Source: Desulfovibrionales bacterium
Lineage (GTDB): Bacteria; Desulfobacterota; Desulfovibrionia; Desulfovibrionales; Desulfonatronaceae
NCBI GenBank assembly: GCA_007693505.1
Contig: REDL01000064.1
Location: 186,001-250,000 of the forward strand
DNA length: 64,000 nt
Direction of reading: 5' to 3'
Part shown: positions 40,075 through 52,391 of the stretch, piece by piece
Position numbering within the stretch: the stretch's first letter is position 1
How the letters are laid out: each line of letters opens with the position of its first letter
Program-made: the position numbers and the translations under genes
Notes under the pieces: generated by a model
The model's database searches: none
What the model saw: the letters and a program-made list of their open reading frames with translations, nothing else
What the model was told of the DNA's origin: nothing

Positions 40075-40851
40075 TTATTGGGAACTGATCCAGGGAGCCA
40101 GGAAATCACCAACCGTTCCGGTGGAATCAATATGTCGAATCAACGCACTGCCCATCACGACGCCGTCCACGACGGATTCCACTCCTTGAAGCTGACTTGG
40201 CGCGTGCAGACCAAAGCCAAGAGCCAGGGGGATGGGAAAGATCTGTTTGGCCTGGGTCAGGGCGTCTTGGAGTTGTTCCGGTAATGTTTCCCGGACGCCG
40301 GTGGTGCCCATGACCGAGACAAAATAGACGAATCCAGTGGCCTTCTCGGCATGGGCCCGCAATCGTTCCGGGCTGCTGTTCAAGCCGACCAACGGAATCA
40401 GGTCGACTCCATGCTCCTGGAGCAGTTTGCGCGGCCCGTCACTTTCCTCCAAAGGCAGGTCGGCGATGATCAGGCCGTTAGCTCCAGCCCGGGCCGCGTC
40501 ACGGGCCAGCTTGTCCATGCCGTACTGCAGAAAGGGGTTCATATAACCCATAAGCACGATTCCCGCCTGGATTGTCGGACGCCGTCGGGTCAGTTCCTCC
40601 AGAATCCAGGCCAGGGTGACGTTCTGTTTCAGGCAGCACAACGCCGCCTGTTCCACAACCGGCCCGTCAGCCACGGGATCGGAAAAAGGGATGCCGATCT
40701 CAATGATATCCGCCCCTGCGGCGTCCAGGTCAGCAATGTGCTTCCAGAAGGCCTCTTTGGTCGGGTAACCGGCGGGCAAATAGGGCATCACGGCCTTGCG
40801 GCCCTGGGCCAGGGCGTTGGTGATTTTATCGGTCAAATGGCTTGTAGACAT
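40075..40851 (-). CDS. trpA: tryptophan synthase alpha chain
   Basis: 258 residues. IEIGIPFSDPVADGP holds the catalytic Glu and Asp; GFVYFVSVMGTTG and ALGFGLHAPSQ form the phosphate end of the barrel. It cleaves indole-3-glycerol phosphate to indole, which tunnels to TrpB. The ATG at 40851 has a GGAG site; the frame extends to 40947 without support. Last gene of the supraoperon. Confidence 0.95.
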   Translation of the reverse strand: MSTSHLTDKITNALAQGRKAVMPYLPAGYPTKEAFWKHIADLDAAGADIIEIGIPFSDPVADGPVVEQAALCCLKQNVTLAWILEELTRRRPTIQAGIVLMGYMNPFLQYGMDKLARDAARAGANGLIIADLPLEESDGPRKLLQEHGVDLIPLVGLNSSPERLRAHAEKATGFVYFVSVMGTTGVRETLPEQLQDALTQAKQIFPIPLALGFGLHAPSQLQGVESVVDGVVMGSALIRHIDSTGTVGDFLAPWISSQ

Positions 40852-40976
40852 TAGGGTTCTCCGGGAAGGTAAGATGAGTGGGTATTCAGAAGTCAGGATG
40901 GCAGAAATCAGAGAGAAGAAAGCTGTTGGGGTTAACTCGTAAGCCAAGTTGCCCTTCAGGTCTCACGTCTCAGCCT

Positions 40977-42155
40977 TCAGCCCTCTCTTTTCAACAGCGC
41001 TTGCCGGACGATCTCCAGATCCTTGTCACCGCGACCGGAGAGACAGACGACCACATTGGCGTTCCGCGGCAGGGTCCCGGCGAGTTTCAGGGCATAGGCC
41101 AGGGCGTGGGAGCTTTCCAGGGCCGGGAGGATGCCTTCGGTGCGGGCCAGGCGCATGAATCCGGCCAGGGCCTGATCGTCGGTCACGCAAACGTATTGGG
41201 CACGGCCCAGAGCCTGGAGATGGGCGTGTTCCGGGCCAACGCCCGGGTAGTCCAGGCCTGGTGCCAGGGAGTGGGAGGCCAGGATCTGGCCTTCGACGGT
41301 TTGGAGCAATTTGGTCATGGTTCCGTGCAGCACCCCGGTCGTTCCGGTGGACAACGTGGCGGAATGGCAACAGCCCGGCGAGCCGTCTCCGGCAGCCTCA
41401 ACGCCGATCAAGGTCACCTGCGCATGGGGCACGAAGGCATGGAACATGCCGATGGCGTTGGAGCCGCCGCCCACGCAAGCCACGACCTGTTCCGGCAGTC
41501 GTCCGACTCGCCTTTGGAATTGATCAAGAGCCTCCCGGCCGATCACGGCCTGCAGTTCGCGGACGAGCAATGGGAAGGGATGCGGTCCTACGGCCGACCC
41601 CAGGCAATAGTGGGTATTGCCTTGTTCGGCGATCCAATGGCGCATGGCCGCGTTGATGGCGTCTTTCAGGGTCCGGCTGCCGGAGTCCACAGGGCGGACC
41701 GTCGCGCCCAAAAGCTCCATGCGCTGGACATTATGCGCCTGGCGAACCACATCCTCGGCGCCCATGTAGACGATGCACTCCAGTCCCAGCAGGGCCGCGG
41801 CCGTGGCCGTGGCCACCCCATGCTGCCCGGCCCCGGTCTCGGCCACCAGCCTGGTCTTGCCCATGTGCTTGGCCAGCAGGGCCTGGCCCACGGTGTTGTT
41901 GATCTTGTGCGCACCGGTATGGGCCAGATCTTCCCGTTTCAGCCAGAGCCCGAAGCCAAGCTCCCGGGAAAGATTGGCGCAGTGATACAGAGCCGTGGGC
42001 CGACCCACGAAATGCGTCAGCAGGTCAGTCAGCTCCCGCTGAAATGGCTCACCGGCCATGATCCGTTCCATGGCTTCCTCCAGTTCCAGCAGCGGCGGCA
42101 TGAGCAGTTCCGGGGCAAAGCGCCCCCCGAAATCGCCGAAATATCCTTTTTGCAT
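40977..42155 (-). CDS. trpB: tryptophan synthase beta chain
   Basis: 392 residues. The PLP lysine is in [12 protein letters not shown], and the phosphate-binding loop is [10 protein letters not shown]. It joins indole and serine to make tryptophan. The ATG at 42155 has a GAGG site and gives the standard [13 protein letters not shown] start; the frame extends to 42242. The TrpB1 (not TrpB2) signature is consistent with an adjacent TrpA. Confidence 0.95.
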
Positions 42156-42317
42156 ATGATGTTCCTCAGTGTTTCTGGTGTTGGGGTTCCTGAATGAGCC
42201 GTAAGTCGTTCCGCTGGTTGTCGTGATCTCCCCGGCCCGCAATCCTCATCGCAATCCGAGGTAAAAGCAGTCATGTTCACATACCCGCCGGTTTTGCATA
42301 AATGCTTTCGATATCGA

Positions 42318-43013
42318 TCAGGATTGCGATTTCGATAGCAATTTGGACAACCGGCTGGGAGTGGCCATGATACGGTCCATGACCGTACGCAGCTTTTCGG
42401 GACTTTTTTGTCCCGGAGCTTCTTCCACCCCGGAATTGAGATCCACGCCCCAGGGGCGGCAGGCGTGCAGGGCTCCCTGGATGTTGTCCGGTCCCAGGCC
42501 CCCGGCCAGGAGCCAGGGCCGGGGAAAGTTCAACCGGGCCAGGGCCGGGAACTCCAGGCTGACCCCGTGACCGCCCACCGAGGTTCCGGCGTCCAAAAGC
42601 AGGGCCCGGCAGGATGATGCAAAGGCGGCCAATTCCTTTTGCAGGGCAGTGAGGTCTGGATAGCGCCGGGGCCAGAAGACCCGGATCACGCGCTCCGGGC
42701 CGACCTGTTCGCAGAAGCGTTGGTCCTGATCGCCGTGAAGCTGGGCCAAGTCCAGTCCGGCCTGGTTCATGATCTCCCGGACCTCTTCCGCTGACTGGAG
42801 CACGAAAACACCGACCCGCACGGCCCGGCCCCGGGGCAGGGACGCGACCTGATCCGGGGTCACGTTCCTGGAACTGGGCGGATAGAAGATGAAGCCGGTC
42901 CAGTGCACCCCCAGTTTTTCGCAAAGCAGGGTATCTTCTGGGCGGCGCAGGCCGCAGACCTTGACCAGGGGGGCGTTGCCGCGCGCATCGTTTTGGGGGA
43001 GCGGCTCAGCCAT
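42318..43013 (-). CDS. trpF: phosphoribosylanthranilate isomerase
   Basis: 231 residues. VKVCGLRRPED at the start and LLDAGTSVGGHG, LAGGLGPDNI and VDLNSGVEEAPG are standard. Its start overlaps the trpC stop by 8 bases. A 162-base spacer separates it from trpB, larger than other joints here; it contains an ATCGAAAT-type micro-repeat. Confidence 0.93.
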   Translation of the reverse strand: MAEPLPQNDARGNAPLVKVCGLRRPEDTLLCEKLGVHWTGFIFYPPSSRNVTPDQVASLPRGRAVRVGVFVLQSAEEVREIMNQAGLDLAQLHGDQDQRFCEQVGPERVIRVFWPRRYPDLTALQKELAAFASSCRALLLDAGTSVGGHGVSLEFPALARLNFPRPWLLAGGLGPDNIQGALHACRPWGVDLNSGVEEAPGQKSPEKLRTVMDRIMATPSRLSKLLSKSQS

Positions 43014-43794
43014 GGATTGGTTCCTTGGGCATGGCCCGGAGCAGTTCGGCCAGGGCCTGGCCTGGGTCAGGCTCCTGCATCAGCCGGGAGCCGATGAGCA
43101 GTCCGTGATAGCCTGCATCCCGCATCCGGACCATGTCCTCAGCCGAATGCATGCCGCTGGCACTGATCCATACTTCTCCTTTGTTCCGGAAGCGAATCAG
43201 ATCCAGGGAGATGCGCAGGTCTGTGGTCAATCGGTCCAGGTCCCGGTTGTTGACCTGAATCAAGGATGAGCCCCCGGCCTGGGCTTTGTCCAGGTCGGCG
43301 CGGTCAAAGACTTCCACCACGGCTTCCAAGGCATATTCCCGGCATGTGGCGAGCATGGACTCCAGCTCGCTATTGGAGAGCATCCGGGCGATGAGCAGCA
43401 GGGCTGCGGCCGGGGTGGCCGCGGTCCGGCGGACCTGCACGGGGTGCAGGAGGAAGTCCTTGCGCAGCAGGGGCAGACCGGGGTTGGCCATTACCTGGAG
43501 AAAATCCAGGCTGCCATGGAAATAGGTTTCCTCGGTGAGCACGGACAGGGCAGTTGCCCCGGCCCGGGCATACCCGGCGGCGGCCTGGCTGGGGGGCCAG
43601 TGTGCATTGATCAGTCCACGACTGGGCGACGCCCGTTTGTATTCCGCGATCACCGCTCCCGGGGCCTGGTGCCGCAGGGCCTGGATCAGGGACGGACGCG
43701 GTCCAGAGAAGGGGGGCGGCAACTGCCCCGTCCTTTCCTGATCCAGCAGGGCTTGGATTTCGGCCTGTTTAGCCTGGCGAAATCGTTCAAGCAT
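43006..43794 (-). CDS. trpC: indole-3-glycerol phosphate synthase
   Basis: 262 residues. VIAEYKRASPSRG, LRKDFLLHPVQV, LLIARML and EVFDRADLDKA are all family landmarks with catalytic Lys and Glu residues. The ATG at 43794 lies inside the last codons of trpD (8-base overlap); longer starts to 43914 would run far into trpD. It makes indole-glycerol phosphate from CdRP. Confidence 0.95.
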   Translation of the reverse strand: MLERFRQAKQAEIQALLDQERTGQLPPPFSGPRPSLIQALRHQAPGAVIAEYKRASPSRGLINAHWPPSQAAAGYARAGATALSVLTEETYFHGSLDFLQVMANPGLPLLRKDFLLHPVQVRRTAATPAAALLLIARMLSNSELESMLATCREYALEAVVEVFDRADLDKAQAGGSSLIQVNNRDLDRLTTDLRISLDLIRFRNKGEVWISASGMHSAEDMVRMRDAGYHGLLIGSRLMQEPDPGQALAELLRAMPKEPIHG

Positions 43795-44848
43795 GAGGGC
43801 CACCTTCCAGGCCGTCTTGAAAGCCGCCCTGAAAGCTGCTTCGGGCGTTTCCGTGGAGCACGTGGCTGCTGACGCCCTGCCGGACCGCGCTTCGGGCCGA
43901 TTCCGCGCATTCAATGAGTCGCCTGCCCGGTTCCAGGAGATAGAGGCAGGCCGCCAGGTTCAGGGCCACCATCTGGACCATGGCCTCCGGTCCCTTGCCG
44001 GCCAGGATCTCCTGCAGCACACCCACGGCATGGGCCTTGTCCCGGACCGCGACGTCTTCCGGGTTGTGGCGGGTGAAGCCCAGTTTCTCGGGGTTCACGG
44101 CCGTCTTTTCCATGATGCCGTCCGCGACCAGATAGCAGCGGGCCGGGCCGAATGTGGTCAGCTCGTCGAACCCCCCGGCACCGTGCACCACCAAGGCCCG
44201 TTCCACACCGGTGAGCAGCAGGGCTTCGGCCATGATGAACAGGGTATCCGGATGGCCGACGCCGATGAGCTGATGGGTGGGCCGGGCCGGGTTGAGCAAC
44301 GGCCCCATCAGGTTGAACAGGGTGCGGATGCCCAGTTCGCGGCGTACGGGCATGATGTGCCGGAAGGCCGGGTGGTAGGCCGGGGCAAAGAGAAAGACGA
44401 ACTTGCGGGCGGCCAGTTTGGCAGCCACCTCCCCAGGGTTCGTTTCCAGGGGAACGCCCAGGGCCTCCAGCACGTCCGCACTGCCGCAGGAGGAGGATAC
44501 GGCCCGGTTGCCGTGCTTGACCACCTGGTAGCCCATTTCGGCCAGAAACAGGGCCACGGCCGTGGAGCAGTTGAAGCTGTTGGCGTTGTCCCCGCCCGTG
44601 CCGCAGGTGTCGATGCGCACCCCGGAAAGCCCGGGTATGTCCAGGGCATGGGCCAGACCGGCTCGCACCCCGGCGGCCAGGTCCGTGGAGTCCTCGCCCT
44701 TGACCCGCAGGCCCATCAGAAAGGCTCCGGCCTGGGCTGGGGCCAATTCTCCATTGAGCAGGGCATGAAACATGTGATCGGCCTGAATGTCGCTCAGGGA
44801 GCGTCTTTGGGCCAACTGCTCGAGAATATCGCTGGTACGCGGGGTCAT
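43787..44848 (-). CDS. trpD: anthranilate phosphoribosyltransferase
   Basis: 353 residues. Glycine-rich DTCGTGGDNANSFNCST binds PRPP, KHGNRAVSSSCGSADVLE binds substrate, and NLMGPLLNPA follows. The ATG at 44848 overlaps the trpG stop by 4 bases and has an AAAGGAG site. Not fused to TrpG here, unlike in enteric bacteria. Confidence 0.95.
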   Translation of the reverse strand: MTPRTSDILEQLAQRRSLSDIQADHMFHALLNGELAPAQAGAFLMGLRVKGEDSTDLAAGVRAGLAHALDIPGLSGVRIDTCGTGGDNANSFNCSTAVALFLAEMGYQVVKHGNRAVSSSCGSADVLEALGVPLETNPGEVAAKLAARKFVFLFAPAYHPAFRHIMPVRRELGIRTLFNLMGPLLNPARPTHQLIGVGHPDTLFIMAEALLLTGVERALVVHGAGGFDELTTFGPARCYLVADGIMEKTAVNPEKLGFTRHNPEDVAVRDKAHAVGVLQEILAGKGPEAMVQMVALNLAACLYLLEPGRRLIECAESARSAVRQGVSSHVLHGNARSSFQGGFQDGLEGGPHA

Positions 44849-45447
44849 TGTCCGCTCCTTTGCGGCATGTCTGGGGTGACATGCATCTGGAGAAAGTTCC
44901 GCAGCAAGGCCGGACCGTCCGGGGTCAAAATGGACTCCGGGTGGAACTGGACCCCGGCCCAGGGTCGATCCTTGTAGCAAAGCCCCATGACTTCGCCTTC
45001 GTCGGTCCAGGCCGTGCGCTCCAGCAGATTTGGTGCCTCTTCCACCCGGACCAGCAGGGAGTGGTAGCGCCCACATTCCATGGGTTGCGGCATGCCGGTA
45101 AACAGCCCTTCGCCGGTATGTCGGACCTGGGAGGTCTTGCCGTGCATGATGCGCTCACCAACGACCACCGAGGCCCCGGCATGGCTCCCAAGGATCTGGT
45201 GGCCCAGGCAGATGCCCAGCACCGGGGTTGTGGTCGGCAACCGTTTCAGGAACTCCAGGCAGTGTCCGGCCAGCTCGGGGCGGCTCGGCCCCGGGGAGAT
45301 CACTACGGCCCGCAGGCCGGAACCGGCAGCCAGTTCCAGCAATTCCGGCTGGTCGTTGCGCACGACGTGCGGAAATTCACCCAGGACCTGAAAAGCCTGG
45401 ACCAGGTTGAAGGTGAACGAGTCGTAGTTATCGATAAGTAAAAACAT
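44845..45447 (-). CDS. trpG: anthranilate synthase component II (glutamine amidotransferase)
   Basis: 200 residues. Class I amidotransferase: LLIDNYDSFTFN, VVISPGPSRP, catalytic Cys in GICLGHQ, and GVQFHPESI with His and Glu. It supplies ammonia to TrpE. The ATG at 45447 lies within trpE (20-base overlap) and has a GGGAGG site. Confidence 0.95.
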   Translation of the reverse strand: MFLLIDNYDSFTFNLVQAFQVLGEFPHVVRNDQPELLELAAGSGLRAVVISPGPSRPELAGHCLEFLKRLPTTTPVLGICLGHQILGSHAGASVVVGERIMHGKTSQVRHTGEGLFTGMPQPMECGRYHSLLVRVEEAPNLLERTAWTDEGEVMGLCYKDRPWAGVQFHPESILTPDGPALLRNFLQMHVTPDMPQRSGQ

Positions 45448-46858
45448 CGCTGCCTCCCTGCCGGCTGAAAGCCTCGAAGAGCACCCGGGCCTTGTTGTGG
45501 CATTCCTGCCATTCCTTGTGCGGATCGGAGTCGTGGACAATCCCGGCCCCGGCCTGAAAATGCACCTGCCCGTCGCGGACCCAGAGGCTGCGGATGGTAA
45601 TGCCCGTATCCAAATTGACAGCGTCGCGCTCCGGACCCTCGGCCGGATTCAGGCCCAGCCAGCCCACGGCTCCGGCATACGGCCCCCGGGGCAGCCCTTC
45701 TTCCTCGGCGATGATTTCCATGGCCCGGATCTTGGGAGCGCCGCTGACCGTCCCGGCGGGGAAGGTGGCCTGGAGCACGTCCAGGGCGTCCTTGCCCTGG
45801 GCCAGTTGCGCCTGGACATAGGACGTCATGTGCATCACGTGCGAGAACCGCTCCACCTGCATGTACTTTTCCACGCTCACCGAGCCCGGAGCGGCGATCC
45901 GCCCCAGGTCGTTGCGGCCCAGATCCACGAGCATCACGTGCTCGGCCCGTTCCTTGGGATCAGCCAGGAGTTCCTCAGCCAGCTCCCGGTCCCGGCTTTC
46001 GGTTTCCCCCCGGAGGCGGGTGCCGGCAATGGGCCGTGATTGGAGTTCGCCGCCCTGGCAGCGGACCAGCAGTTCCGGTGAGGAGCCCAGCAGGGTCAAT
46101 CGGGGCAAGCGCATGAAGAACATGTAGGGCGAGGGGTTGATTTGGCGTAAGCGGCGGTAAAGCACAAAGGGCTCACCAGAGAACGGGGCTTCGAACCGGG
46201 TGGAGAGCACGGTCTGGATGACCTCTCCGGTGCGGATCAGCTCCTTGGTCCGGCGGACCCGCTCCATGAACTCCTCGGCTTCGGGTATGTGGCGGACTTG
46301 GCCCATCACTGGTGGCTCATCCGGAGCGCTTTGCTGCAGTTCATCCACGCCGTTGCGTTCCGGGTCCAGGCTGAGCACGCAGCAGCGATGGTGCAAATGG
46401 TCGAACAGAGCCACCCGTCCGGGCAGGACCAGGCAGGCGTCGGACTGACTCAGGGGGAGGTGATCGGCCAGCTTGGGTTCGAGAAGTCCGGCCATGCCAT
46501 AGCCAAAATACCCGTAAAGACCCCGAGCCAGGGCCGGCAGTTCAGCGAATTCATCCTGGGGAGTGATTCGCAGGGTGTCCAGGACTTTGCGCAGGGCCGG
46601 GACAAATGGTTCGCTGTTCAGTTTTTCCAGGGGAGTGAGGCGCGGATCCTGGCACTGGACATCCATGCATCCTTCCCGGCAGCTGAGTCGCAACCGGAAA
46701 TCCCAGGCAATCAGGCTGTAGCGGCCCAGGCGCCCGTCCACTTCCGCGCTTTCCAGCAGGATGCCTTGTCGTTTGCCCACCAGTCCCAGGAACAGGCTGA
46801 TGGGGGTCTGCACGTCCGCTGCCAGCCATTGGCCGGTTTGGGACAGGTTGATTGACAT
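45428..46858 (-). CDS. trpE: anthranilate synthase component I
   Basis: 476 residues. N-terminal LLESAEVDGRLGRYS contains the LLES-type tryptophan feedback site. The chorismate-binding core has PIAGTRLRGET, DLGRNDLGRI and GAVGWLG. The ATG at 46858 has AAAGGAG, and the frame continues upstream only through the attenuator region. First of the seven trp genes and preceded by a terminator hairpin at 46899-46931, so its expression is probably attenuated. Confidence 0.95.
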   Translation of the reverse strand: MSINLSQTGQWLAADVQTPISLFLGLVGKRQGILLESAEVDGRLGRYSLIAWDFRLRLSCREGCMDVQCQDPRLTPLEKLNSEPFVPALRKVLDTLRITPQDEFAELPALARGLYGYFGYGMAGLLEPKLADHLPLSQSDACLVLPGRVALFDHLHHRCCVLSLDPERNGVDELQQSAPDEPPVMGQVRHIPEAEEFMERVRRTKELIRTGEVIQTVLSTRFEAPFSGEPFVLYRRLRQINPSPYMFFMRLPRLTLLGSSPELLVRCQGGELQSRPIAGTRLRGETESRDRELAEELLADPKERAEHVMLVDLGRNDLGRIAAPGSVSVEKYMQVERFSHVMHMTSYVQAQLAQGKDALDVLQATFPAGTVSGAPKIRAMEIIAEEEGLPRGPYAGAVGWLGLNPAEGPERDAVNLDTGITIRSLWVRDGQVHFQAGAGIVHDSDPHKEWQECHNKARVLFEAFSRQGGSDVFTYR

Positions 46859-46898
46859 GGTGACTCCTTTGCAGTGTCTGCGTTCGTGGTTCACGAAA

Positions 46899-46931
46899 AA
46901 AAGCCGCCTTCCTGGAGGGGAGGCGGCTTTT
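46899..46931 (-). terminator. intrinsic terminator in the tyrA-trpE spacer (candidate trp attenuator)
   Basis: Eleven-bp stem AAAAGCCGCCT (46899-46909) and its complement (46921-46931), then seven U on the minus strand. It lies in the 109-base spacer before trpE. The loop contains TCCTGGAG's complement (46910-46917), which can pair with 46958-46965 just after the tyrA stop; that region can alternatively form a 7-bp hairpin (46935-46941 with 46955-46961). Confidence 0.8.
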
Positions 46932-46967
46932 CGGGGAGCGCGGCATAGTGACTTGCGCTCCAGGATT

Positions 46968-47765
46968 CTATGGGCCGGTTTCTCCCCCCTGTTCCGTGTT
47001 TCGCCACCACCAGCCGGCCCGCTGGGCCAGGACGTCAACGTCTCCGCCCGCTGCGAGGTTGAGGTGGGAGCGAAACAGCCGCACCGCGTCCTGGCTGAAG
47101 GGGTTGGCCTCGAAAAGGTCCGCGAAGAGTCCGGCATCTTCGGTGATCATCTTGCGGGCCGCTTCCAGGCGGCGGCGAAAGGAGGGGGTCACGAAGTCCC
47201 GGATGGCCTCGTCTCCGGCCAGGGCGGCCAGGTACGCACAGCTGGTGACGAAATTCAGCCCCTGGACAGCAGCCATGGCCCGGTCATGGATTTCCGGGGT
47301 GGTCCGGAAGGGGGTGAAGCCCAGCCGGTGCATCAGGACGCTCACGGCTTGGGCCGCCGCCTCGTCCCGACCCAAGGTCACGGCCACCCGAGGTTCCTCG
47401 CCGGGATCCTGGCCGAATAAGGGGTGGGTGCCCACAACCGGACCGGGATGGTGGCGGAGCATCAGGCCCAAGGGCTGGACCTTTACGGAGCAGACGTCCA
47501 TGAGGATGCTTTGCGGACCGCAGTGGGGGCAGCACCTGGCCAGGACGTCGGCCATGGCCGGTGCTGGAACGGCCAAAAGCAGCAGGTCCTGCTCCGGCAG
47601 CACGTCGGCCAGTCGATTGTCCTCCAGTGGCTGGTCCAACCCGGTTGTCACGATTCCGGCGTCCCGCATGCGGGAGAGGAACAAGCCGCCCATCCGCCCG
47701 CGCGAGCCGATCACGCAGCATCGGGAAAGGTGACGGGGCTGGTCGGCCATGTCCGGGGTGTTCAC
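46968..47765 (-). CDS. tyrA: prephenate dehydrogenase (TyrA-type)
   Basis: 265 residues. NAD-binding CCVIGSRGRMGG, and GTHPLFGQDPGEE typical of TyrA. It makes 4-hydroxyphenylpyruvate for tyrosine. Its C-terminus reads AGWWWRNTEQ, with three Trp codons at 47004-47012, 36 bases before the stop. That placement, just upstream of a terminator and trpE, suggests the tail is also a leader peptide. Starts overlapping aroA by 4 bases. Confidence 0.88.
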   Translation of the reverse strand: MNTPDMADQPRHLSRCCVIGSRGRMGGLFLSRMRDAGIVTTGLDQPLEDNRLADVLPEQDLLLLAVPAPAMADVLARCCPHCGPQSILMDVCSVKVQPLGLMLRHHPGPVVGTHPLFGQDPGEEPRVAVTLGRDEAAAQAVSVLMHRLGFTPFRTTPEIHDRAMAAVQGLNFVTSCAYLAALAGDEAIRDFVTPSFRRRLEAARKMITEDAGLFADLFEANPFSQDAVRLFRSHLNLAAGGDVDVLAQRAGWWWRNTEQGGETGP

Positions 47766-49147
47766 CTGGACTCCTGCTGCGACTGGGCCTGCCGCGACTG
47801 GGCAAGTCCGGCCTTGAGTTCATTCCAGCGCGTCCAAAACTCCGGGAAGGACTTGGCCACGCAACCGGGCTGGTCCAGATCCACGCCAATGCCGCCCAAT
47901 TCCAGCAGGGACAGGCTCATGGCCAGACGATGGTCCCCGTAGGTCCGGAAGGCAACCTGGCTTTCCGAAGGCAACGGGGCTGGCTCGATCCGCAGGCCGT
48001 CGTCCAGGGCGGTGGTCGTGGCTCCGATCCGGGCCAATTCCGTAACCACGGCGTCCAGCCGGTCGCTTTCCTTGATCCGCAGGTGGGCCACGTTGCGGAT
48101 CGTGGTTGTGCCTCTGGCCTGGGCGGCCACCGCGGCCACGGTGGGCACCAGGTCCGGACAAGGGCCCATATCCAGGTCCACGCCGCGCAACGCACCGCCG
48201 ACCACGGTGACCTGATCCGGAGTGTCGCGACTCCAGGCCACCGTGGCGCCCATCCGGGCCAGAATATCCACGATGGCCCGGTCGCCCTGCAGAGATTGGG
48301 GATTCAGGCCGCGCAGTCCCACGGGAGCGGTGCTCAGGGCGCCGGCAGCCAGGAAGTAGGAGGCATTGCTCCAGTCCCCTTCCACGGCCATGCTTTGGGC
48401 CTGATACGCTCCGGGTTGAATCCGGATGCGCAGGCGGCCGGGGGCGACATCACCGGGTGTGCGCCAGTCCACGTCCATCCAGCGGGCATGGTGCAGGGTC
48501 TGTACCTGGAAGTGCACGCCGAACCGTTCCATCACGTCCAGGGTCAATCCGACATAGGGCCAGGAAACCACCTTGTGTCCGCCCACCAGGATGGTCAACG
48601 GTGCACGGGCCAGTGGCGCGGCCAGAAGCAGGCCGGAGATGTACTGGCTGGACTCGTCCAGGTCGATGCTCGTTTCGCCTCCGGGCAGACCGGAGGCATG
48701 CAGAAGCAGAGGCGGGCAACCGGGCTGCTCCAGGTATTCCACCTCGGTCCCTTGGGAGGTCAGGGCCGCGACCAGGCTGGCAATGGGCCGGGAGTGCATC
48801 TTGCCCAGGCCCTCAATCCGAAACGATCCATGCCCGGCGGCCAGCACCGCGGTCAGCAGCCGGCAAGTGGTTCCGGATTCGCCCACGTTCATGACCAGAG
48901 GCTCCAGGTCATGCCGGCGCTCGCGGCCCAGAGGACCGCGAGGCATGCCGGAGACAACGTATCGTCCCGGGCCGTCGCGCTGGATCAGGGCCGAGGCCCG
49001 GGCCAGAATATCCCTGGTCCGTTCCAGGTCCTCGCTTTCCAGGACGTTCGTCAGCAGAGACCGGCCCGGGGCCAAGGCCGCGGCGATCAGGGCGCGGTGA
49101 GACAGGGATTTGGAGGCCGGAGCCTCAAGGATAACGGGATTTGGCAT
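47762..49147 (-). CDS. aroA: EPSP synthase
   Basis: 461 residues. The N-terminal substrate motif is PASKSLSHRALI; NVGESGTTCRLL and LGRFRTYGDHRLAMSL-like regions with KESDRLDAV also match. It joins PEP to shikimate 3-phosphate. The ATG at 49147 with AGGA is preferred; 49192 would overlap pheA. In the middle of the supraoperon, between pheA and tyrA. Confidence 0.93.
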   Translation of the reverse strand: MPNPVILEAPASKSLSHRALIAAALAPGRSLLTNVLESEDLERTRDILARASALIQRDGPGRYVVSGMPRGPLGRERRHDLEPLVMNVGESGTTCRLLTAVLAAGHGSFRIEGLGKMHSRPIASLVAALTSQGTEVEYLEQPGCPPLLLHASGLPGGETSIDLDESSQYISGLLLAAPLARAPLTILVGGHKVVSWPYVGLTLDVMERFGVHFQVQTLHHARWMDVDWRTPGDVAPGRLRIRIQPGAYQAQSMAVEGDWSNASYFLAAGALSTAPVGLRGLNPQSLQGDRAIVDILARMGATVAWSRDTPDQVTVVGGALRGVDLDMGPCPDLVPTVAAVAAQARGTTTIRNVAHLRIKESDRLDAVVTELARIGATTTALDDGLRIEPAPLPSESQVAFRTYGDHRLAMSLSLLELGGIGVDLDQPGCVAKSFPEFWTRWNELKAGLAQSRQAQSQQESR

Positions 49148-49181
49148 GGATGATTCCTGGAATAGAGATTGAAAAAAGCGA

Positions 49182-50333
49182 TTACCCTTCACTAACGTCC
49201 AGGTACGGCCCTGACGGGTAACTGCCCAGGATGCGCAGGGTGTGGCAGTTGTCGCGCAGGTCGTTCAGAACCTGCTGGTATTCCTGGCGGCTGACGTCGC
49301 ATTCCAGGTCAACGAAGAACACATATTTCCACTTTTCACCCCGAAAAGGCCGGGATTCCAATTTTTTCATGTTGATGCCCTCCCGGGCCAGCAGATTCAG
49401 GACCGCGGCCAGGGCGCCGGGCTTGTCCGGCAGCGTAAACAGGAGGGAGGTCTTGTCCTGGTTGCCGGCGCCGGCCGGTATCGAACCAATGACCAGAAAG
49501 CGGGTCCAGTTGTCCGGCTGGTCCTCGATGCGTCGGGCCAGGGCAGTCAGGCCGAGCATGCGGCCCAGGCGGACGTGGCCGATGGCCGCGCTGTCCGGCT
49601 CTTCCAGCACCCGCCTGGCCGCGGCCGCGGTGCTTTCCGCGGGCACGATTCGGGCCGTGGGCAGATGCGAGCGCAGCCAGGTGGAGCATTGCTCCAGGGC
49701 CTGGGGGTGGGAGTACACCTTGGTCACCTCGGCCAGTTGGCGGGCCGTGGACAGCAGGGCATGGCTGATTTTGCAGTAGATTTCCGCCTGCACGTGGACC
49801 TCAAATTGCAGAAACAAATCCAGGCTCTGGCCCACGGTGCCCTGCAGGGAATTTTCCAGGGGAATCACGCCCAGTTCGGCTTCCCGGGCCACCACGGCCT
49901 GAAAAACCTCGTACAGGGTGGGTTTTGGCTGGAACTCAGCGCTGTGGCCCAGGTATTCCACCCCGGCAAAATAGGAAAAGGTGCCTTCCGGTCCAAGGTA
50001 GACAATGTTCTGGGGGCGTTGCAGCCTTCGGGAGGAGGAGAGGATTTCCCGGTAGATGGAGCGCAGGTGCTCCTCCGGCAGCGGGCCGGGGTTGGCTGTT
50101 GTCAAGCTGGTCAGGAGTTCCTTTTCCCGAAACGGTTTGAAGATGATGTCCCGCTGGTCCTGCTTGAGTCGGCCCACTTCCAGGCTCAGGGCTGCCCGGC
50201 GGTTGAGAATGGTCAGCAATTGTTGGTCAATGGCGTCGATGTCCCGGCGTAGTGCAGCCATGCGGGCCTGGCTTTCCGGGGACAGCTCGGATGGGGTGGA
50301 TTGGTGGCCGGGGGGTGAGGGGTTCGGGCTCAT
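49182..50333 (-). CDS. pheA: bifunctional chorismate mutase/prephenate dehydratase
   Basis: 383 residues. An AroQ-type mutase helix domain at the N-terminus (LRRDIDAIDQQLLTILNRR) is followed by the dehydratase domain (YLGPEGTFSYFA, VIPLENSLQGTV, SHPQALEQC) and an ACT domain (LFTLPDKPGALAAVLN, with ESRPFRG binding Phe). It makes phenylpyruvate and is feedback inhibited. It overlaps the preceding gene by 4 bases. Confidence 0.95.
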   Translation of the reverse strand: MSPNPSPPGHQSTPSELSPESQARMAALRRDIDAIDQQLLTILNRRAALSLEVGRLKQDQRDIIFKPFREKELLTSLTTANPGPLPEEHLRSIYREILSSSRRLQRPQNIVYLGPEGTFSYFAGVEYLGHSAEFQPKPTLYEVFQAVVAREAELGVIPLENSLQGTVGQSLDLFLQFEVHVQAEIYCKISHALLSTARQLAEVTKVYSHPQALEQCSTWLRSHLPTARIVPAESTAAAARRVLEEPDSAAIGHVRLGRMLGLTALARRIEDQPDNWTRFLVIGSIPAGAGNQDKTSLLFTLPDKPGALAAVLNLLAREGINMKKLESRPFRGEKWKYVFFVDLECDVSRQEYQQVLNDLRDNCHTLRILGSYPSGPYLDVSEG

Positions 50334-51307
50334 GCTTCGCTGATCTCCTCGCTGATGGCCATGCCGAAATGCCGCCCGGCCGTGTCCAGGCGACAGAGGA
50401 TTTCATCCCCTGGCGCCAGGGCGACCACGCTCACCGGTGAGCCGTCGAGGCGGACCAGACGGATGGTTTCCGCGTTTTGCAGAAAAATCGTGCCGGTTCG
50501 ATCACCGCAGGAGGCGGAAATCAGGATCAATGGGCGGATTTCCACCTTGGAGCGGCCGACCACGGCCAGGGATGTCCGGCCGGTTGCGTCGACGATGAGT
50601 ACTTCTCGTCCGGAAGCAATTTCTCCAAGATAGGCGGTTCGGTCCCGGGGCAACAGGGTGTAGGCATGCACGGCTCCGGCGTTGATCCGGAACGGGCGGG
50701 CCGCGACATATGGGTTTTCCTCGGTTTCAGCGTGAACCAGGAAGGTGAAGGCACTGGAATTGCCCACGAGCATGCCCTGCCCGGTGCGCAGCAGCGAACA
50801 GGTGTCCACGCAAACCCGGTGGCCCAGGCCCACGGGGGTGATGGCATCAATCCGGGCGGTACTCAGTTCCAACCGGCCCTCGGAAAGCTTGAGTGCGGCA
50901 ACGATGGCCTTCAGCTCCGCCCCGGCCTCGGGCAGGACCACCACGAAGTCCACCCCGCGCTCCAGGATGCCCGCGGCCAGTCGGGCCTGATCCAGGGAGG
51001 CGACCTCCACGCCCAGCCCATCGCCCTGGGCCAGAATGTTCTCCACGGGAATGATTTCCCAGCCCAGCCGAAGCAGCACCTTGCCCTGGGTGCGCAGGCA
51101 GTGCACCGCGCTGTCTTCGTCGGCCTTGGACTCCAGGCAGACCGTGGAGAGCTCTTCCTCGGGCAGGACGGTGATCCGCCCCAGGGCCTGGATTTCCTCC
51201 ACCCGGTTCGCCGGGGCGATGATGGCGTCCACCCCGGACTCCAAAGCCAAGGTGACGGTGGCCTTGTCGAAGGGTACAGCCTTGAACCAAACTTGGGTCA
51301 TGATCAT
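50330..51307 (-). CDS. 3-dehydroquinate synthase II (archaeal type)
   Basis: 325 residues matching the AroB'-like NAD-dependent enzyme that converts 2-amino-3,7-dideoxyheptulosonate to dehydroquinate: GHRVCVDTCSLLRTGQGML and GRTSLAVVGRSKVEIRPL are typical. This replaces the usual DAHP-dependent AroB. The start has a good spacing to the preceding aldolase (8-base gap). The pair indicates an aspartate-semialdehyde entry into the aromatic pathway. Confidence 0.92.
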   Translation of the reverse strand: MIMTQVWFKAVPFDKATVTLALESGVDAIIAPANRVEEIQALGRITVLPEEELSTVCLESKADEDSAVHCLRTQGKVLLRLGWEIIPVENILAQGDGLGVEVASLDQARLAAGILERGVDFVVVLPEAGAELKAIVAALKLSEGRLELSTARIDAITPVGLGHRVCVDTCSLLRTGQGMLVGNSSAFTFLVHAETEENPYVAARPFRINAGAVHAYTLLPRDRTAYLGEIASGREVLIVDATGRTSLAVVGRSKVEIRPLILISASCGDRTGTIFLQNAETIRLVRLDGSPVSVVALAPGDEILCRLDTAGRHFGMAISEEISEA

Positions 51308-51315
51308 GTCCTCGT

Positions 51316-52119
51316 TTATTGCAAAAGTTCCATGGCCTGCGCCACTTCCCAGTCGTCATGGACGATGCCGTGCAGGGCCTGGACCAGTCGGGCAGGTTGC
51401 TGGGCCTGGAAGATGTTCCGCCCGATGGACAGCCCCGCGCCTCCGGCCTGGAGGCTGTCGGAGACCATGCGCACCAGGTCCTCGCTGCTGTCCAGTTTCG
51501 GCCCGCCGGCAATCACCACAGGCACGCAGCAGCCGTCCACCACCCTGCGGAAGGATTCGATGGTGCCGGTATAGGGTACCTTGACCACATCAGCGCCCAG
51601 TTCCACGCCCACCCGGGCACACTGGGCCACCACGTCCGGGTCGTATTCATCGGCAATTTTCGGTCCGCGGGCATAAACCATGGCCAGCACCGGCATGCCC
51701 CAGTCCATGGCAGCGGTGGTGACCCGGCCCATCTGCTCCAGCATGTAGCGTTCGGTTTCGTCGCCCAGGTTGATATGCAGGCTGACCGCGTCCGCACCCA
51801 GCTTGATGGCGTCCTCCACCGTGCCCACCAGGGTTTTGGCATTGGGGAACGGGGAGAGAGACGTGCTGGCCGAAAGGTGGACGATCAATCCGATGTCCGC
51901 GCCCTTGCCCCGGTGGGAGCAGCGTACCAGCCCCTTGTGCAGGATGATGGCATTCGCTCCGCCCTCGGCCACGCTGTTGATGGATTCGCGCATGTCCACC
52001 AGCCCGTCAATGGGGCCGACGCTGACGCCGTGGTCCATGGGCACGACGATGGTCCGGCCCGTATTGCGGTTGAAAATCCGCTCCAGGCGGACGGCTTTGC
52101 CCAAGTGCATGTTCTGCAT
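51316..52119 (-). CDS. ADTH synthase (class I aldolase, archaeal-type shikimate entry)
   Basis: 267 residues. [27 protein letters not shown], and [14 protein letters not shown]-like end with the Schiff-base Lys in VVKVPYTG are features of the DhnA-type aldolase, which condenses 6-deoxy-5-ketofructose phosphate with aspartate semialdehyde. The ATG at 52119 has a GGGGAG site. First structural gene of the supraoperon, behind a leader ORF and terminator. Fructose-bisphosphate aldolase is an alternative name, but the neighbour decides the role. Confidence 0.9.
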
Positions 52120-52193
52120 GATCTGTCTCCCCGGGCCCTGTTCCCGGATTTGTCTCAAGCAGACCGTCAAGAGCTACCGCCGCGGCCAAAAAA

Positions 52194-52224
52194 AAGGGCC
52201 GCCGGCGGTTTGCCTGCGGCCCTT
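52194..52224 (-). terminator. intrinsic terminator upstream of the aromatic supraoperon
   Basis: Nine-bp stem AAGGGCCGC (52194-52202) and its complement (52216-52224), 13-base loop, followed by eight U on the minus strand. It sits 75 bases upstream of the first structural gene and 22 bases past the leader stop. Together with the leader it forms a likely attenuator. Confidence 0.85.
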
Positions 52225-52246
52225 GAGAGCGGTTTGCTATGGTATC

Positions 52247-52354
52247 CTAGACTGTTGAATGCACCGCTGCCCTCTGACCACAGGTCAATCCACGCCAAAA
52301 ATAAAAAAAACCAAAATAAAAATTCGTGGTGTGGAAGAGGGGCAAGGAGTGCAT
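52247..52354 (-). CDS. aromatic leader peptide ORF
   Basis: 35 codons from ATG (52354) to TAG. Residues 12-20 read FYFGFFYFW, eight aromatic residues of nine, with codons at 52295-52321. It resembles the pheA and pheST leader peptides in concept. The ORF ends just before an intrinsic terminator. It is found by eye; the start lacks a clear ribosome-binding site, and T-rich DNA favours Phe and Tyr codons, so translation is not proven. See the finding. Confidence 0.65.
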   Translation of the reverse strand: MHSLPLFHTTNFYFGFFYFWRGLTCGQRAAVHSTV

Positions 52355-52361
52355 GGATCGG

Positions 52362-52391
52362 TCAATACAGAAAGCCGGCAAGACATGTCAA
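52362..52391 (-). promoter_or_regulatory. putative sigma-70 promoter of the aromatic supraoperon
   Basis: On the minus strand TTGACA (52386-52391) and TATTGA (52362-52367) are 18 bases apart. If right, transcription would begin within a base or two of the leader ATG, leaving almost no 5' UTR. The -10 is weak; a promoter slightly upstream is also possible. Confidence 0.4.

Follow-up and report, generated by a model that had tools for sequence, protein, structure and literature searches.

The window, i.e., the whole stretch of 64,000 nucleotides that was analyzed, carries an aromatic supraoperon of twelve genes in the order aroA'-aroB'-pheA-aroA-tyrA-trpEGDCFBA. The gene names are based on Pfam for aroB', pheA, aroA, tyrA, and trpE and on ORF translations for trpG to trpA, and the order was determined by tblastn. 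The pheA gene encodes a chorismate mutase-prephenate dehydratase, aroA an EPSP synthase, and tyrA a prephenate dehydrogenase; from the gene content of the operon, it follows that all three aromatic amino acids are made. The first gene, aroA', is also known from D. vulgaris (PMC1173090). The supraoperon is preceded by a leader element that lies on the minus strand throughout. The features are the following.

52386..52391, minus strand: -35 box TTGACA, found as TTGAC at a near-fixed distance 5' of the ATG in 60 of 60 related leaders
52362..52367, minus strand: candidate -10 box TATTGA, proposed from sequence and spacing (18-nt spacer, 7 nt 5' of the ATG)
52247..52354, minus strand: leader ORF MHSLPLFHTTNFYFGFFYFWRGLTCGQRAAVHSTV, 35 codons plus TAG; ORF and aromatic run are kept in orthologous loci
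52330..52340, minus strand: region 1, CCUCU-U-CCACA, forms the 1:2 helix with region 2, in which it surpasses shuffled sequences and permuted partners
52295..52321, minus strand: sensor codons 12-20, FYFGFFYFW; their aromatic character is conserved and their composition tracks the downstream genes
52271..52285, minus strand: region 2, ACCUGUGGUC-AGAGG, within the ORF, with the core CCUGUGGUC at 52284-52276; CUGUGGYC is conserved as RNA
52226..52271, minus strand: apical part of the antiterminator hairpin, including AGCGGT/ACCGCT and the stop codon, as folded with a ribosome stalled at Trp20
52212..52224, minus strand: region 3, AAGGGCCGCAGGC, terminator 5' arm and antiterminator 3' arm, near-invariant in the alignment
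52194..52206, minus strand: region 4, GCCGGCGGCCCUU, terminator 3' arm
52188..52195, minus strand: U8 tract of the intrinsic terminator, seen in the sequence; a T-run is present in nearly all relatives
51316..52119, minus strand: aroA', DeoC/LacD-family aldolase (Pfam DeoC 9e-68), ADTH/DKFP-type first step, the first supraoperon gene
40075..51307, minus strand: aroB' (dehydroquinate synthase II), pheA, aroA, tyrA, trpE, trpG, trpD, trpC, trpF, trpB, and trpA

The leader ORF starts with the ATG at 52354 and ends with the TAG at 52249-52247, and eight of its residues 12-20 are aromatic, just as an earlier note on this DNA had reported. The same holds for the hairpin and the U tract described there. 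The intrinsic terminator (52224-52188) begins 22 nt past the ORF stop and reads AAGGGCCGC A GGC / GCC G GCGGCCCTT, followed by eight T; its stem consists of the 9 bp of AAGGGCCGC/GCGGCCCTT with 3 more beyond the A.G mismatch. The promoter that was supposed to lie ahead of the ORF can be placed at the TTGACA of 52391-52386. Its candidate -10 box is a weak hexamer and was missed by a consensus promoter scan.

Within the window, the leader ORF is the only one among 636 ATG ORFs of 20-60 amino acids with eight aromatic residues in ten, the runner-up having six. Nine aromatic codons are present vs. 4.7 in shuffled sequences (p 0.017 in this base-composition test of a single ORF), and the leader RNA has a folding z-score of -3.5. 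For a single ORF in the window, base composition is the weaker test, and it is conservation that settles the reality of the leader.

To assess conservation, loci were gathered by AroA' protein similarity and, hence, blind to the leader. This resulted in 60 loci with leaders, 57 before aroA'-aroB' type operons and three before extra aroA' copies. All 57 orthologous operons examined are preceded by this layout. None of the 60 leaders lacks any of its elements, which are the TTGAC box, the ATG, a short ORF containing a run of aromatic residues, region 2, and the terminator; the ORF of one of them (L012), in a metagenome assembly, contains a frameshift. The aromatic codons and the terminator are kept in the alignment of relatives; the N-terminal half of the peptide is poorly conserved. 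A covariance model of the leader matched in 315 of 348 genomes of Desulfovibrionales, including 236 of the 246 high-quality ones, and these matches cover 52 of 59 genera, with none of the six families of the order left out. No leader was found before the second aroA' gene of the window's own genus (L059-L061). The copy in the window's own genome (L059, G000:C65:124313-125104) is 70% identical and has neither a leader nor a terminator.

The pairings of the leader RNA are conserved as well. The antiterminator is formed by CCUGUGGUC (52284-52276) and GGCCGCAGG (52221-52213), the latter belonging to the 5' arm of the terminator. All 60 loci allow this 2:3 pairing, at -17 to -25 kcal/mol. In an alignment of 38 sequences, 95.2% of the cells in the 2:3 helix are paired vs. 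34-44% when the partners are slid by 1-3 columns, and for the 3:4 terminator helix the figure is 98.5%. Compensation is also seen: of the six cases where region 3 has GCGGG for GCAGG, five have CCCG for CCUG in region 2 (U-A to C-G), and a U.G pair results in the sixth. The 1:2 helix is stronger than helices with shuffled region 1 (mean z -2.2 over the 38 loci), with significance not reached in every single locus. None of 20,000 permutations with region 1 of other loci was as good, a test that is partly confounded by GC differences among the genomes, so that the within-locus shuffle gives the safer figure. The earlier note had offered two alternative pairings, and both exist. That of CCUCU-CCACA with UGUGG-AGAGG is the competing 1:2 helix. 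AGCGGT/ACCGCT was discarded as antiterminator, since it has no overlap with the terminator and is only an apical extension of the real antiterminator hairpin.

These features very probably constitute a ribosome-mediated transcription attenuator that senses charged tRNA-Phe, tRNA-Tyr, and tRNA-Trp together, and the comparative evidence, i.e., the pairings, their compensation, and the match between codons and genes discussed below, supports the joint response that had been proposed for this leader. From them, we infer the start site, the stalling, the kinetics, and the amino-acid response in the following scheme. Transcription would start at, or a few bases from, the leader AUG, and ribosome loading at the 5' end would require no Shine-Dalgarno (SD) sequence. 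When any aromatic tRNA is scarce, the ribosome would stall in FYFGFFYFW, which would keep region 1 from pairing; free region 2 (CCUGUGGUC) could then pair with region 3 (GGCCGCAGG), no terminator would form, and the twelve-gene supraoperon would be transcribed. When aromatics are sufficient, the ribosome would traverse region 2 up to the stop codon in the loop between regions 2 and 3 and thus block the 2:3 pairing. After its passage, the 1:2 helix would refold, the 3:4 helix would form, and transcription would stop at the U8 tract.

Folding with and without a stalled ribosome had been suggested earlier as a check. In the fold model of the window, P(2:3) is 1.00 with a ribosome parked on any tested aromatic codon, and P(3:4) is 1.00 for the full transcript without a ribosome. 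On the other side, P(2:3) is 0.68 without a ribosome and 0.99 with a ribosome at the stop codon, in a model where base pairs may form across the ribosome; the same calculation gives 0.00 for three related leaders (L051, L054, and L065). The anti-antiterminator step is thus weaker in the window than in some relatives. There, it relies on steric reasoning: because the stop codon sits in the 2-3 loop, a ribosome at this position is expected to obstruct the 2:3 pairing.

The ORF is probably translated from a leaderless transcript. The distance between the -35 box and the ATG is 29-34 nt in 51 of 60 loci; with this distance from TTGACA, the usual start site is expected within a few bases of the ATG. 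In the same loci, the mean SD strength is -2.4 kcal/mol before the leader ATG vs. -10.1 before aroA'. Thus, the earlier note was right that a clear ribosome-binding site is missing, as SD sequences are weak or absent in most relatives, but what was listed there as a weakness is explained by the probable leaderless start. Alternatively, a second promoter further upstream might generate a longer 5' end, in which case the ORF would not be leaderless. The spacing is longer indeed in several f5 genera (g10, g39, g22, g36, and g47), where 43-67 nt separate the -35 box from the ATG, and in g10, with 47-54 nt, a modest SD sequence is recognizable (-5.7). However, the 29-34 nt of the majority leave no room for a 5' UTR that includes an SD sequence, and the difference in SD strength with the aroA' start codon also argues for a leaderless start, which makes an upstream promoter unlikely as a general explanation. 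The leader exists in both designs, leaderless-type and SD-led, and the lineage allows for a comparison of the two versions of one sensor.

Leaderless sensor ORFs are known from mycobacteria, which have leaderless poly-Cys attenuators, although these respond to cysteine, belong to another phylum, and differ in the details of the mechanism. In Sinorhizobium (S.) meliloti, the 5' end of the attenuator RNA rnTrpL coincides with the trpL ATG (PMC7298713), as is probable for the leader in the window. Unlike the leaders of Desulfovibrionales, trpL senses only Trp, controls only trpE(G), is from an α-proteobacterium, and has no aromatic regulon. The resemblance in layout with rnTrpL raises the question whether, besides attenuation, the leader peptide or the short attenuated RNA also acts in trans in the style of peTrpL/rnTrpL, and a leaderless ORF would indeed be made whenever the promoter fires. 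The poor conservation of the N-terminal half of the peptide speaks against such an additional role, for which we see only a slight chance.

The codons in the sensor are not fixed. Their re-coding was surveyed in genomes with several matches to the covariance model, where the most aromatic ORF per match was taken as the leader, which biases the amount of aromatic codons but not which aromatic is found. The triplet WWW occurs in 13 of 16 leaders before trpE or TRAP genes vs. 0 of 118 elsewhere (p 1e-15), and the Phe share is higher in leaders before a symporter or phenylacetate-CoA ligase gene (p 1e-8); these p-values are generous, as related leaders are statistically dependent, and it was the TrpE protein, not the covariance model, that led to most of the trpE-type WWW leaders. 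WWW leaders precede trpE in L240 and L277 and a DctP-type TRAP binding protein gene in L200, L239, L262, and L267, with WW in L275. Two loci do not fit the codon rule, i.e., L272 (TRAP, where WWW was not found) and L285 (trpE). Four other weak model matches (L203, L242, L281, and L284) have no recognizable leader and were treated as chance.

Leaders before extra aroA' copies are either Phe-only (L193, L205, L234, L247-L249, and L065) or Tyr-rich to Tyr-only (L063, L064, L198, L266, and L276). Such copies with their own leaders parallel AroF, AroG, and AroH of E. coli. Poly-Phe leaders are found before a sodium/solute symporter gene, e.g., MNTNQNRFSFFFFFSFRFFRSACGLGVCV in L180. Phe-rich attenuators before this gene were seen at L180, L182, L192, L194-L197, and L235 and likewise at L250, L251, L253, L255, L256, and L260. 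From its leader, the symporter is predicted to be an importer of phenylalanine (aromatic) substrates. Phe-rich leaders also precede a gene for a phenylacetate-CoA ligase (L237, L238, L241, and L278; NCBIfam PaaK 7e-190, just below its cut-off), suggesting aryl-acid salvage for Phe synthesis under Phe control. The TRAP binding protein with the WWW leader is close to PDB entries 4n6d, 4pgn/4pgp, and 4nap (E 1e-119 or better). As a lead, these structures come from Desulfovibrio species, and some were reportedly solved with tryptophan or indole acids bound. The WWW leader predicts uptake of tryptophan or indole acids by this TRAP system. At one further locus, L269, a Tyr/Phe-rich leader stands before a gene for a malate/lactate-type (Ldh_2-like) dehydrogenase, possibly a hydroxyphenyl-acid dehydrogenase.

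The sensor also changes when genes of the operon move, split off, or are lost, which amounts to a natural codon-swap experiment. In g10, the trp genes are located outside the supraoperon, in a separate operon behind a WWW leader of its own with a different terminator. In L368-L372 of this genus, the WWW leader ends in a conserved RGGDVRA, and the terminator is unlike GGGCCGCAGGC: the same logic in another sequence. In genome G010, two WWW leaders are found in tandem ahead of trpE; two WWW leader-terminator units are positioned at -495 and -301 before trpE in L367. Leaders without any Trp codon occur in two species, represented by genomes G051 and G039, in which a trpE orthologue is missing; a chorismate-binding match was weak (30%) in G051 and absent in G039. 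The main leaders of nine g10 loci and of G010 kept one Trp codon though the operon lost trp, which counts against the scheme.

These swaps bear on the nature of the signal. The earlier note had cautioned that T-rich DNA favors Phe and Tyr codons by chance, and this objection does not hold: the aromatic fraction of the leaders is 0.27 in frame 0 vs. 0.12 and 0.17 for the two alternative frames, and, taken one by one, 22 of 38 leaders exceed shuffled sequences at p<0.01. Moreover, in GC-rich relatives and paralogues the codons are exchanged for all-Phe, all-Tyr, or all-Trp sets, depending on which gene lies downstream. Together with the uniqueness among the 636 ORFs, frame enrichment and the codon-to-gene match rule out a chance ORF. 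A switch that works independently of translation, i.e., a T-box, a riboswitch, or a protein-bound leader with an incidental ORF, would suit the strong structure of the RNA and the poly-U stretches that favor Phe and Tyr codons, but is hardly credible given that ATG, frame, and stop are kept, that aromatic codons are enriched in frame only, and that they follow the downstream genes. Furthermore, neither the window nor any of eight related loci matched an Rfam family, T-box, Trp_leader, and Phe_leader included, apart from non-significant miRNA/sRNA noise, by which a T-box, a riboswitch, and a known Rfam leader were dismissed. The leader is almost certainly a real amino-acid sensor.

Sensing could, in principle, also occur through the peptide, in a TnaC/SecM-like manner, when a RACGLEG-like C-terminal end stalls the ribosome on free aromatic amino acids. 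The C-terminal part is indeed conserved as ACGLEG, ACGQ, or ACGPKG in many relatives. However, its residues vary (CGL, CGP, CGQ, ARG, ASGS), while the pairing RNA CUGUGGYC is kept, with compensatory change, and the wholesale swaps among Phe, Tyr, and Trp fit with codon sensing rather than with one arrest peptide. Nascent-peptide arrest is, therefore, very improbable compared with codon-based attenuation.

The mechanism proposed is classical. The trp and phe leaders of E. coli, of which Rfam contains such families, also have a short ORF that contains regulatory codons, antiterminator and terminator structures that exclude each other, and control by charged tRNA. In contrast to these, the leader in the window senses three amino acids, its ORF runs through region 2, its stop codon is placed differently, and it has no Rfam match. 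Multivalency is known from the ilvGMEDA leader of E. coli, which likewise responds to more than one end product of a single pathway set, but in that case the amino acids are branched-chain instead of aromatic and initiation is SD-dependent. A putative attenuator before the supraoperon aroA'>aroB'>aroQ-pheA>aroF>tyrA>[trp] of D. vulgaris was listed in 2005, based on Merino's terminator/antiterminator predictions (PMC1173090, Table 7). Since operon, position, and order are the same, it is almost certainly the same element as the leader in the window. The text reports it as a putative attenuator only and describes neither a leader peptide nor the amino acids that are sensed, the design of the start site, or any relatives, and aromatic attenuators are not mentioned in a study of regulation in delta-proteobacteria of 2004 (PMC545781). 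A search of the non-subscription literature for Desulfovibrio with leader peptide and attenuator yielded no account of this peptide or its regulon, and nothing useful on transcript 5' ends and leader peptides in Desulfovibrio. Within the literature searched, the sensing of three aromatics at once, the leaderless design, and the re-coding across a regulon thus appear to be undescribed.

Taken as a whole, it is likely that one attenuator scaffold, conserved and usually leaderless, spread across the Desulfovibrionales, that looser relatives of it exist in other parts of the phylum, and that its sensor codons have been re-coded for the whole aromatic regulon and predict the substrates of uncharacterized transporters. 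In the proposed regulon, Phe, Tyr, and Trp together would control the supraoperon, and Phe-only or Tyr-only leaders the extra first-step enzymes. Trp-only leaders would control split trp operons and the TRAP transporter, and Phe-only leaders the symporter and the phenylacetate-CoA ligase, sometimes in tandem. If true, sensor codons could be used to predict what transporters of uncharacterized specificity import, and sulfate reducers would have a complete, testable logic for the control of aromatic amino acids by RNA alone.

Outside the order, a sample of the phylum contained 29 further genomes with weak matches to the covariance model. Nine of the 13 inspected matches precede a first-step enzyme, as identified from translations, either aroA' (L163, L167, L170, and L172) or DAHP synthase (L165, L166, L168, L171, and L175). 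In these leaders, e.g., MNNFSGNYFGFYWYFYNTGLPEVR, the region-2 sequence is different, and they may be either homologous or convergent. In L169 and L174, tandem Tyr-rich leaders precede a gene for an apparent ADP-forming acyl-CoA synthetase. Tandem leader-terminator units ahead of one operon, Tyr-rich twice or Phe/Tyr twice, are seen in L169, L174, and L176. Another weak match, L164, lies before an EamA-type transporter gene and has two Trp codons in its leader. Finally, short aromatic-rich ORFs are located 5' of aroA' in a Sumerlaeota bin (L314), in Desulfofervidaceae (L329), and in a Deferribacteres bin (L335); the names of these records refer to other phyla or families, and either binning errors or a wider spread of the leader may be behind them.
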